Positions 3,067 through 35,272 of a DNA stretch of 44,191 nucleotides are shown one piece after another. The notes under the pieces are model-generated. The model saw only the letters and a program-made list of their open reading frames with translations. It did no database searches and was not told the origin of the DNA. The DNA is taken from the NCBI GenBank assembly GCA_026702755.1, contig JAPPBX010000106.1, forward strand, positions 1 through 44,191, given 5' to 3'. The stretch comes from Candidatus Poribacteria bacterium. GTDB taxonomy: Bacteria > Poribacteria > WGA-4E > WGA-3G. Positions within the stretch are counted from its first letter, which is position 1. Each line of letters opens with the position of its first letter. The translations under genes and the position numbers were made by a program.

Positions 3067-4344
3067 ATGGAAGCCGAGTTTTTCGGTGAAACAGCAGGTA
3101 TTGAAAGTGTTGATCCTTACATGGACGCATCATATCCAGATGAAACAGAGCCCTCGGAGAGTTACAAAGGAAGCGATCAGAATGCTTTAACGAGTTGGCT
3201 TCGGAGTGTAGCTGGACACCGTCTGTTAACCCGTGAGGAAGAAGTTGAATTGGCAAAACGGATTGAAACCGCGGAAGCCAAAGCATTAGATGAACTATTA
3301 GAAGCATCCGTGAAAGCAGATTTATTAGTTCGCGAGAAGAAAGAGCTACTGGTCAAGCAAATTGAAGCCGCGGAAGCCAAAGCCCTAGAGGAACTACTGG
3401 AAGCACTCGTGAAAGCAGATTTATTAGTTCGCGAGAAGAAAGAGCTACTGGCGGAACAGATTGAAGCTGGCAGATGTGAAGCACGGAAAGCACTCGTAGA
3501 TGAACTACTAAAAGCACTCGTGAAAGTGAATTCATTATCCAGTAAAGAAAAAGAGTTACTGGCGAAACGGATTGAAATTGCGGAAGGCGAAGCACGAAAA
3601 GCACGAGATGAACTCGTTCAAGCGAACCTACGACTTGTTATTTCTATTGCCGTCAAATACCAGGGGCACAACGTTCCACTTGAAGATCTGATTCAAGAGG
3701 GAAACATTGGATTGATTAAAGCAGCAAGTAAGTTCGATTACCAGAAGGGTTTTAAGTTCAGCACGTACGCCATCTGGTGGATTAAACAGGCAATTATGCG
3801 TACACTCGATAATTTCTCCCGCTCAATTCGATTGCCTTCTTACGTGGTCGCGAAGATGAATAAGTTCGATGCGGTTTATGCGACCTTGTGCCAAGAACTG
3901 CAACGCGAACCACGGCGCGAGGAAATAGCGGAAGCCTTAGACCTGACAGTAAAACAGGTCGAGGAAATTTTAACGTTCAACGCTGACGCTATTTCAATGG
4001 ATTTACCACTCAGTGATGAGCGCTCCGCCGCAACATTAGGTGATTTAATCGAAGACCCAACAACCAGCGGAGAAGACGGCCCGATCGCAGAAATAATTAA
4101 CAAAGATCTGACCGCCCAATTTCTTAAAAGATTACCTGAGCGAGAACAGAGAGTGCTGAAAATGCGCTTTGGACTCGAAGATGGGGAACGGAAAACACTC
4201 CGCGAAATTGGTGTTGCCCTGAAAGTTACCCGAGAACGGGTCAGACAACTCGAAATAGACGCAATCAAGCGGTTGCATGACCTTTACGACGAAATGGGAG
4301 AATTTCGATCAGATCAATCTTGGGTAGGAAAAACCGCCGCATAG
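3067..4344 (+). CDS. sigma-70 family RNA polymerase sigma factor with a fourfold repeated 1.2-2.1 segment
   Basis: Directs RNA polymerase to promoters. The 425 residues lack region 1.1. Region 1.2 is seen at about 40-60, region 2.1-2.4 at about 181-260 (core-binding NLRLVISIA, and [15 protein letters not shown] for -10 melting), region 3 at about 275-325, and region 4 ends with the DNA-reading helix of [20 protein letters not shown]. The region 2.4 segment reads [12 protein letters not shown] where primary factors usually have a form like QARTIRIPVH, so this may be an alternative group 2 factor and not the housekeeping one. Residues 56-191 are four head-to-tail copies of a 33-residue unit (the third is 37) that occurs once in ordinary sigma factors. 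The start has AAGGAGAGGAG upstream. nfuA follows after 22 bp. Confidence 0.93.
3232..3639 (+). repeat. four tandem copies of a 99-bp unit inside the sigma factor
   Basis: Copies lie at 3232-3330, 3331-3429, 3430-3540 and 3541-3639. Each starts at an R/S-E/K-x-x-E position and ends in a variant of A-D/N-L-x-L-V. Copies 1 and 2 share long identical DNA stretches, so at least one duplication is recent. Copy 3 has four extra codons. All copies are in frame. Confidence 0.85.
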
Positions 4345-22482: not shown

Positions 22483-24243
22483 ATGCGACTCCAATGGAAA
22501 TACTCCCTCGTTATCAACCTTTCTGTTATAGCGATCCTTGTGGCGTTTTACCTTTTTGATAGCATCCGGGTCCGAAATGATATGAATGCGCTTCACGCCT
22601 TGGGGGCAGAACGTGGTGCTGAACTGAGGAAAATCGCTGAAAACGCAATCCTTGATGCTGTTGAGATGGAGATCGAAACCACAAGAGTGTTTGATGCACA
22701 GCAACTCGATCAAGTGCTGAATAAACTGAAGCGTGAACATCCGGATATGCAAAATGTGCTGAATATCCACGTCTCCTTAAATGATACCCGTATTCGCTCC
22801 AGTCTGCTCGCCGGTAAAGATACCGGTGACATAAATCTTGATTCAGCGGACTTTGAACAAATTGAAACGAAAGGCGCGACGATATACGCCGTTGAGGGAC
22901 AGAACGCAACGGCTATTGTTATTAAATATATTGCCGTTTTGACCGGACCAAAGTCAATTGAGTTGAAGCCAATCGATTTCGCTTATGAACCAAGACTCGA
23001 TGCCGGGACGCTGCCGTATGAGGTCTGGGTGAGAGCCTTTGGTGAACTCGATGCCGGGACGCTACCGTATGAAGTCTGGGTGAGAGCCTTTGGCGAAAAG
23101 GTCTATGTGCCAGAGGATCCAGTGATAACCGAAGAAAAAGGTAGACGCTGGCGAATGACAGATCAAGCAAAAGGTGAGGTTTATAATTTATGGAAGCAAG
23201 ATGAGACTTTGTGGATTCAAAAAGCATTAACCGGCTACATACAAGTCCTTTTCGATGTTCCTTATATCGGCAGATCAATTCGATATTCGTTGCTAATGCA
23301 CGCAATATTGATCGTAATTGTTGGGGCACTGCTCGTGATTCTGATAGATTTAACCACAAATCACCTAATTATGAAGCCATTAGAGCGGATGACTCGTATT
23401 ATTCAGAGCGCAGAAAGCGGAGATTTATCGCCGCAGGAGGTTTATTCATCAGATGAAATTGGGAGGGCAACTTACAATCTCGCACGGATGCTGTGGCAAC
23501 TCCGGGACTCTCATTCAAAACGGATTACTGCTTTAGGGCAATTTGCCGCTGGTGTGGCACACGAAATCCGGAACCCGCTTAATTCCATCGGGATGACTGC
23601 TCAGCATCTGAAATCTGTTTTCTCACAACGAAAGGTAAGTCAAGACGACATTGAAGAAGCGAAAGAACTTTTAGAGATCGTTGACCAAAAAATAACGGAA
23701 CTGAAACAGACTTCAGAGCAATTCCTTACTTTAAATCGACCGAGAAAATTAAATGTAGAATCGGTAAACCTCAATACTCTTGTAGAGCAAGTTTTAGCGG
23801 AATTCACACTCATCGCCGAAGAAGCCAAAGTTCAGGTCATCAGAAACTACGATGAAAATCTGCCGGATGTCCCATTAGATGAAGCCTTAATGCGACAGAC
23901 TATATTTAACTTTGTGCAAAACAGTATCCAAGCAATGCCGAAAGGGGGTAGCATCTACATAACCACCCTGACTGAAAAGATAGAACAAGATACAAAAGAC
24001 GCAGTGATCGAAATCCGAGATACTGGCATTGGTATCCCCGAAGAAATTCAGGAACAGATTTACGATGCATATTTTACAACGAAGGACGCTACCGGAGGCA
24101 TAGGACTGGGACTTGCCGTTTCACACCAAATCATCACCGCTCATAAAGGTAAGATTGAAGTCCGAAGCAAAATGGGAATGGGAACCGCTTTCAAAATCAG
24201 TTTCCCGCTGAGTGAAGATAATTCCCACAAACTTCCAGCTTAA
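22483..24243 (+). CDS. membrane sensor histidine kinase
   Basis: A 586-residue kinase. A first membrane segment (about 7-22) and a second (about 271-291) bracket a periplasmic sensor region of about 245 residues. A HAMP linker (about 292-345, ending QLRDSHSKRITALG) leads to the HisKA domain with FAAGVAHEIRNPLN and phospho-acceptor H360. The ATPase domain shows NFVQNSIQAM (N box), DTGIGIP (G1) and GGIGLGLAV (G2). A 17-residue segment in the sensor region is exactly doubled (172-188 and 189-205). It starts one base after glpK and lies 19 bp before its likely partner regulator. The signal sensed is unknown; its link to glycerol is only by position. Confidence 0.93.
   Translation: MRLQWKYSLVINLSVIAILVAFYLFDSIRVRNDMNALHALGAERGAELRKIAENAILDAVEMEIETTRVFDAQQLDQVLNKLKREHPDMQNVLNIHVSLNDTRIRSSLLAGKDTGDINLDSADFEQIETKGATIYAVEGQNATAIVIKYIAVLTGPKSIELKPIDFAYEPRLDAGTLPYEVWVRAFGELDAGTLPYEVWVRAFGEKVYVPEDPVITEEKGRRWRMTDQAKGEVYNLWKQDETLWIQKALTGYIQVLFDVPYIGRSIRYSLLMHAILIVIVGALLVILIDLTTNHLIMKPLERMTRIIQSAESGDLSPQEVYSSDEIGRATYNLARMLWQLRDSHSKRITALGQFAAGVAHEIRNPLNSIGMTAQHLKSVFSQRKVSQDDIEEAKELLEIVDQKITELKQTSEQFLTLNRPRKLNVESVNLNTLVEQVLAEFTLIAEEAKVQVIRNYDENLPDVPLDEALMRQTIFNFVQNSIQAMPKGGSIYITTLTEKIEQDTKDAVIEIRDTGIGIPEEIQEQIYDAYFTTKDATGGIGLGLAVSHQIITAHKGKIEVRSKMGMGTAFKISFPLSEDNSHKLPA
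22996..23097 (+). repeat. 51-bp tandem duplication in the sensor kinase
   Basis: Copies at 22996-23046 and 23047-23097 differ at only a few bases and encode LDAGTLPYEVWVRAFGE twice in a row. The frame is kept. Confidence 0.9.
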
Positions 24244-34435: not shown

Positions 34436-35272
34436 ATGCAGGCACACCGGATAAAAAACCTATTTTCTGTCATCGCGCGTCATTACGACTTTCTCAACTC
34501 GCTGTTAAGTTTGAAACGCGACAGAAGTTGGCGGCACGAAACCGTTAAGGTCAGTGATGTCAAACCGGCGAGCAAGGTGTTAGATGTCTGTACAGGTACA
34601 GGTGAACTTGCCCTTGCATACTCGGACAAAATTGGGGCGGAGGGTTTTGTCATCGGTTCAGATTTCTGCTTCGAGATGCTCGTTATCGGAAATCAGAAAG
34701 TCGGAACTGGAAGAGGGGAACAAAAGAGAGGAAGGATGGAAGAGGGGAAGGATGGGGACCCCAACCTTCCACCTTTCCACCCTTCCAGTCCAACGCCTTC
34801 CCTCCTTCCAACCCCTTCTGCCAGCCCCCGTTTCCTGGCAGCGGATACCCTCATTCTGCCCTTTCTGGACGATACCTTCGATGTTGTCTCTGTAGGTTTC
34901 GGGATTCGGAACGTTGCGGATTTAGAAATGGGGATACGTGAGATGACACGCGTTGCTGCGCCGGGAGGTCGAGTCGTTATCTTGGAGTTTACACAACCCG
35001 TAAATCCACTATTTCGGAGTCTCTACTATTTCTATTTCACGAAGATTTTACCTTTCATCGGGAACTTAATCTCACGCAACAAAGACGATGCGTACGGGTA
35101 TCTCCCCCGTTCAGTTATGAAATTCCCGGATTGTGATGCTCTGAAAACGGTAATGGAGCAGTGTGGATTGATGGATGTACAGTATTACCGAAAAACGTTC
35201 GGTATCGTGGCAATTCACGTTGGTAAGAAACCTGATAAGGCATCGTCTGAATCAGGATTTACAGGATTATAA
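34436..35272 (+). CDS. UbiE/MenG quinone-biosynthesis methyltransferase with an inserted foldback
   Basis: SAM-dependent C-methyltransferase of menaquinone or ubiquinone synthesis. Its family start IKNLFSVIARHYDFLNSLLS, SAM motif VLDVCTGTGELAL and FDVVSVGFGIRNVADLEMG are clear. The protein has 278 residues from the ATG at 34436, four bases after the pheT stop; family members have about 235-250. The excess, about 35 residues at 89-131, is low-complexity (GEQKRGRMEEGKDG, then PPFHPSSPTPSLLPTPSASP) between the MLxxGxxK and LPFLDD motifs. It is encoded by a purine/pyrimidine foldback. The last residues, SESGFTGL, come from a second repeat. Without neighbours from the quinone pathway, ubiE and menG cannot be told apart. 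Confidence 0.88.
   Translation: MQAHRIKNLFSVIARHYDFLNSLLSLKRDRSWRHETVKVSDVKPASKVLDVCTGTGELALAYSDKIGAEGFVIGSDFCFEMLVIGNQKVGTGRGEQKRGRMEEGKDGDPNLPPFHPSSPTPSLLPTPSASPRFLAADTLILPFLDDTFDVVSVGFGIRNVADLEMGIREMTRVAAPGGRVVILEFTQPVNPLFRSLYYFYFTKILPFIGNLISRNKDDAYGYLPRSVMKFPDCDALKTVMEQCGLMDVQYYRKTFGIVAIHVGKKPDKASSESGFTGL
34730..34786. repeat. 57-bp purine/pyrimidine foldback inside the methyltransferase gene
   Basis: A G/A-rich arm (34730-34757) and a C/T-rich arm (34759-34786) are complementary at 23 of 28 positions with a one-base loop. The surrounding 34701-34828 is similarly purine- then pyrimidine-biased. Confidence 0.8.

Follow-up and report, generated by a model that had tools for sequence, protein, structure and literature searches.

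Rickettsia palindromic elements (RPEs) have been described as 'protein-coding palindromes' (Ogata 2000, 2002, cited after the review PMC10969869). GTAG REPs are defined by a GTAG head and a hairpin; REPs also occur inside genes, and different REPs have been found at about the same recB site in two Xanthomonas species, a direct precedent for site reuse (PMC3733652). Here, we analyzed a 44-kb window (the whole stretch of DNA under study, 44,191 nucleotides), which corresponds to contig C106 in the 5.84-Mb genome of a Candidatus Poribacteria bacterium (G000), a sponge symbiont. We found no paper on palindromic repeats in Poribacteria in the open literature, beyond which others may exist, and the 2014 Poribacteria single-cell genome paper makes no mention of palindromes. 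The window contains a ubiE-type gene with a foldback inserted into its reading frame. Our preferred reading, to which we assign a probability of about 0.77, is that the insert is a copy of a dispersed non-autonomous foldback family (family A) that would have entered the loop between helix B and strand 3 of ubiE within a Poribacteria genus. The same codon would have been occupied in turn by A and at least two other palindrome families, B and C, with the encoded loop probably being a near-neutral, disordered passenger and not a new function.

A foldback within the ubiE reading frame

The gene starts a few bases 3' of the pheT stop, and orthologues are present in 58 of 60 related genomes. Its features, in window coordinates, are as follows.

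34436..35272, + strand: insert-bearing coding sequence of a ubiE/menG-type SAM methyltransferase, 278 codons (PF01209, TIGR01934; orthologues)
34577..34609, + strand: SAM-binding motif I, VLDVCTGTGEL, intact (conserved columns of the A3 alignment)
34691..34831, + strand: variable loop from helix B to strand 3, 47 codons, N86-R132; about 14 codons in short-loop orthologues
34730..34757, + strand: purine arm of the family A foldback, made of 8-bp units, GGAAGGATGGAAGAGGGGAAGGATGGGG (inverted-repeat call; dispersed copies)
34759..34786, + strand: pyrimidine arm, pairing with the purine arm at 23/28 positions (inverted-repeat call; shuffles)
34787..34828, + strand: additional pyrimidine-rich CTTCC units, coding for the Pro/Ser-rich second half of the loop
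34838..34864, + strand: conserved motif after the loop, AADTLILPF (conserved columns of the A3 alignment)

The protein passed the curated cut-offs of both family models (215 bits against Pfam PF01209, cut-off 20; 216 bits against TIGR01934, cut-off 158), and both alignments are broken into two stretches flanking the insert. Together with the intact SAM motif, this places it by sequence in the UbiE/MenG family, whose members take part in quinone synthesis, the activity of the loop-bearing enzyme being predicted. Scores against single-function equivalog models stayed under their cut-offs.

The original prediction had described a purine-rich arm followed by its pyrimidine-rich complement, inserted in frame between two conserved motifs of an otherwise intact enzyme. 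Both the coordinates and the pairing could be reproduced: the inverted repeat has 28-nt arms that are 82% complementary (23/28) around a 1-nt spacer. This is the sole hairpin in the window with at least 23/28 pairs and a loop of at most 8, and dinucleotide shuffling of the window, repeated 40 times, produced no such hairpin. When the 128-nt insert stretch itself was shuffled 2000 times, 23/28 was never reached (0/2000, best 20). The family models and the conserved columns likewise agree with an in-frame position and an intact core. The predicted size of about 35 codons needs a small correction, as the loop spans 47 residues (..FEMLVIG to FLAADTL) compared with about 14 in short-loop orthologues, corresponding to ca. 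33 added codons. The insert has a purine fraction of 0.88 in its first half and a pyrimidine fraction of 0.80 in its second half, and the 128-nt stretch is open in all six reading frames (6/6). Because purine codons precede pyrimidine codons, the encoded peptide is first charged and then Pro/Ser-rich, as had been predicted.

Other repeats were seen in the window. The UbiE C-terminus carries another repeat-like stretch (35250-35272, CAGGATTTACAGGATTATAAG) forming a lineage-specific tail that differs among relatives. Positions 3251-3604 hold an imperfect tandem repeat with a period of 99 to 111 bp, and positions 22995-23097 hold two copies of a 51-bp unit with 94% matches.

Family A as a dispersed repeat

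In family A, a short spacer separates an array of 8-bp TGGAAGRN units from a complementary NYCTTCCA array. Searching for the arm elsewhere in G000, as the original prediction had proposed, returned 18 other places at E<=0.001, and the arm is thus a dispersed repeat. A strict pattern of two units plus two units, which longer arrays may match more than once, gave 44 matches in G000, 49 in its nearest relative and 0-55 per genome across 38 congeners, while the reversed control pattern gave none in every genome searched. Copies differ in unit number and many are intergenic. Among copies sampled by search and region, 5.0 of six frames were open on average compared with 2.7 for random genomic segments of equal length, and 13/35 were open in all six frames compared with 0.8% of random genomic stretches. 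The units are almost stop-free, so in-frame survival is easy.

Within genes of G000, in-frame copies interrupt a PMT_2 glycosyltransferase, a TPR/UnbV protein, a sugar ABC ATPase and a YegS-type kinase. Other genes carry A close to the N-terminus, where the true start is uncertain. UbiE, PMT_2 and YegS read the repeat in a common phase, yielding the peptide (M/T)EEGKDG..LPxFQPS. Family A therefore has the properties of a protein-coding palindrome: it is dispersed both between and inside genes, and it lies in frame in unrelated conserved genes (UbiE, ABC ATPase, YegS, PMT_2, TPR/UnbV) while being missing from some of their orthologues.

Family A lacks the GTAG/CGTC tag of REPs, its ends being TGGAAG../..CTTCCA, and no A foldback was seen in those flanks of Y1 genes that were read in G000. 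On these two grounds, a link between A and Y1/RAYT transposases was rejected. No transposase attributable to family A was found. Free A copies in genes are mostly common to the nearest species, and no movement of a free copy was caught.

Different palindromes at the same ubiE codon

We scored the ubiE loop as A, B, C or short in 55 Poribacteria. Eight genomes carry A (G000, G001, G003, G006, G013, G015, G018 and G022), 15 sequences carry B, an unrelated GTAG-headed 26-bp palindrome (GTAGGTGCGGTTTCTAACCGCACTAC), and some orthologues carry C or C remnants (GTAGGCACGCTCCGTCGTGCC); the remainder have the short loop. At least three unrelated palindromes are thus found at one codon position within the genus, all in frame. 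The notion of an insert private to one genome has to be abandoned, since a family A loop lies at the same codon in seven other species of the genus. The original prediction had named orthologues with the same loop as a refutation, and seven congeners have it, yet the sequence is still an insertion relative to most orthologues, given that the short loop is found in other congeners and in outgroup families. The same loop was recovered in metagenome-assembled genomes from independent projects, and an assembly artefact was therefore rejected.

Each genome of the same genus that was searched has 11-79 matches to B and 4-15 to C; in an order-level relative (G044) the numbers are 0 and 3. Both families have many copies and show the GTAG head and hairpin by which GTAG REPs are recognized. 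In case of family C, four copies with 52-bp spacing lie directly downstream of a RAYT-like gene (L248 1128-1304; ORF 249-1031), forming a REP/transposase unit. The encoded protein has 261 aa, is of the Y1 type, contains NHVHLL and scores below the cut-off of Pfam PF01797. One B copy lies near a Y1 transposase (C21), but that transposase has flanking palindromes of its own that differ (CACCCCGTAGGGGTGC), which speaks against a tie between B and this transposase. Towards the C-terminus of an acyl-CoA synthetase, three B copies are read in frame (L252 974-1090; ALTPVGAVSNRTDADI repeats), and the B peptide PVGAVSNRT is common to this enzyme and UbiE.

Other loops behave in the same way. Loops of the sugar ABC ATPase (L137-L166) and YegS (L167-L196) contain A, foldbacks of 7-bp units (GTCAGCA, GGCTATC), CGTAATGAAATGGAGGGCGGATCTACGGAA or GTAGGAGGGATCTCCGAATCCCGA, always in frame. 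The TPR/UnbV, PBP and PMT_2 sites show a like turnover, and across all five genes the species differ in having A, 7-bp-unit foldbacks, other palindromes or an empty site. Since relatives bear unrelated palindromes at the same spot, small repeat elements have repeatedly used the ubiE loop as a landing site.

History of the loop states

On a ubiE tree built without the loop, A requires seven changes, six of them forced by well-supported branches. A single A clade was rejected both overall (AU p 2.7e-45) and within a 21-member clade (AU p 2.2e-43), the tested groups being defined by loop state and not by the tree. Seven A loops share idiosyncratic sequence whereas the eighth (G022) differs and may represent a second event. 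Clock-like vertical descent of the A loop was rejected, given the weak correlation between loop and gene distances (rho 0.33, p 0.15). At third positions (fourfold sites), A loops have diverged by 0.14 and B loops by 0.09, compared with about 0.45 for adjacent codons. Loop divergence below that of the flanks is not expected for a vertically inherited neutral passenger and calls for horizontal spread of the loop or constraint at the DNA level.

Homologous recombination of ubiE could have spread A and B alleles across species, in which case the scatter on the tree would reflect gene exchange and not repeated insertion. This is a sub-question compatible with our preferred reading, and we consider the chances about even. 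Such exchange would fit the A and B labels in the 21-member clade, which scatter as much as shuffled labels, and the near uniformity of each loop state, less diverged internally than its flanks. However, synonymous divergence in the 10 codons beside the loop shows no consistent drop when same-state pairs (A-A, B-B) are compared with A-B pairs, so that any recombination tract must be very short; long tracts were rejected, as no clear fall was seen beside the loop. Loop states may thus have passed between lineages by short recombination or by repeated insertion, or may be held back by constraint at the DNA level. A further idea, which we regard as quite unlikely, is element-only swapping, where small palindromes would be swapped at fixed positions in surface loops of core enzymes, precisely and with no flanking gene sequence taken along. 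If true, this would be a process of loop diversification by targeted insertion and precise replacement, and not a series of rare tolerated hits.

Family A cores carried by MITEs

MITE ends (AGGACTTACGCA ... TGCGTAAGTCC) flank several A copies on one side or on both. At L104, L126 and L127 (around position 2540), a MITE with the ends CAGGACTTACGC/GCGTAAGTCC has family A as its internal hairpin. Among sister species, the first two are missing from both G001 and G007 and the third from G007, in each case leaving a clean empty site, and an AT-rich target duplication of about 6 bp is present at L104 and L126. All three therefore have the terminal inverted repeats (TIRs) and empty sites of a MITE, with the duplication seen at two of them, and MITE-borne A copies are polymorphic for presence and absence. 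Their empty sites indicate that A cores move, at least when carried by a MITE. In case of the ubiE copy, no GGACTTACGCA end was found in the window with up to one mismatch allowed, and there is no recognizable target duplication.

These copies also bear on the possibility that the insert is an ancient low-complexity expansion of purine codons, grown in place by slippage and hairpin strand switching, and that it resembles other copies through convergence, its 8-bp units being simple. Even the short loop is rich in GGAA (GGTGGAACGGAAGGAACGAGGAACAGG), the arms are tandem 8-mers whose number varies among copies, and free copies in genes tend to be common to close species, all of which would suit growth in place. 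Against this, the strict foldback pattern has 44 matches in G000 and its reversal none, A loops form no clade on the gene tree yet seven of them have idiosyncratic sequence in common, and A cores are carried inside a MITE. We therefore regard in-place expansion as unlikely. Insertion of a family A copy remains our preferred reading; A itself would once have transposed into ubiE, where it was presumably retained since it can be translated without meeting a stop and the loop lies outside the conserved core.

Effect on the protein

Protein-level constraint is relaxed in the insert, the A loop having a pN/pS of 0.74 compared with 0.097 for the remainder of UbiE. In an AlphaFold2 model based on 49 relatives, much of the core has a pLDDT >90 while residues 94-127, located between helix 79-90 and strand 132-135, have a pLDDT <50. 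The best solved structural match of the model is yeast Coq5 (4obw). In class I methyltransferases, helix-to-strand loops lie on the face opposite the SAM site. The A loop is best described as a tolerated passenger that is predicted to be unstructured, in line with the tolerance proposed originally, and it is probably translated and tolerated in the cell. Co-option of the loop and its retention by selection, for instance for binding to a membrane or a partner, is very unlikely: although the loop is open and in frame in all eight species and its charged-then-proline-rich pattern is conserved, that pattern follows from the DNA arms alone, pN/pS is near neutral, pLDDT is low and sister species have unrelated peptides or the short loop instead.

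Comparison with known systems

Rickettsia is the best-known source of protein-coding palindromes, and intragenic REPs are scattered elsewhere; several families can now be followed in the same enzyme loops of another phylum. Dozens of genomes are available for tracing this turnover, which makes the origin of protein segments from selfish DNA, the tolerance of particular loops and the crossing of loop states between species testable. For annotators, this means that an indel in a loop of a Poribacteria protein can stem from the insertion of a repeat and need not be a functional signature.

UbiE/MenG/Coq5 methyltransferases share fold, motifs and profile match with the protein studied here, whose loop between helix B and strand 3 is ca. 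33 residues longer. The likeness to RPEs is one of kind only: like family A, they are dispersed palindromes between and inside unrelated genes that lie in frame and add tens of residues to conserved enzymes (PMC10969869). RPEs have about 150 bp and a conserved peptide, whereas family A belongs to another phylum, has another sequence and is a foldback of variable length made of tandem 8-bp units. Poribacteria further differ in that one codon position is filled by different palindrome families in different species. Compared with intragenic GTAG/CGTC REPs (PMC3733652), families B and C share the GTAG head and hairpin, and B is in frame in both UbiE and acyl-CoA synthetase, whereas family A has neither the head nor a linked RAYT. 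Site reuse in Poribacteria also covers many species and several genes and involves both REP and non-REP elements. As for MITEs, some A copies lie within a unit that is bounded by TIRs and shows target duplication and empty sites, while the ubiE copy is without TIRs. Family A thus falls outside the REPs and its ubiE copy outside the MITEs, and we assign it only to the broad kind of protein-coding palindromes. New here are the phylum, the tandem-unit foldback and the serial occupation of one codon position.
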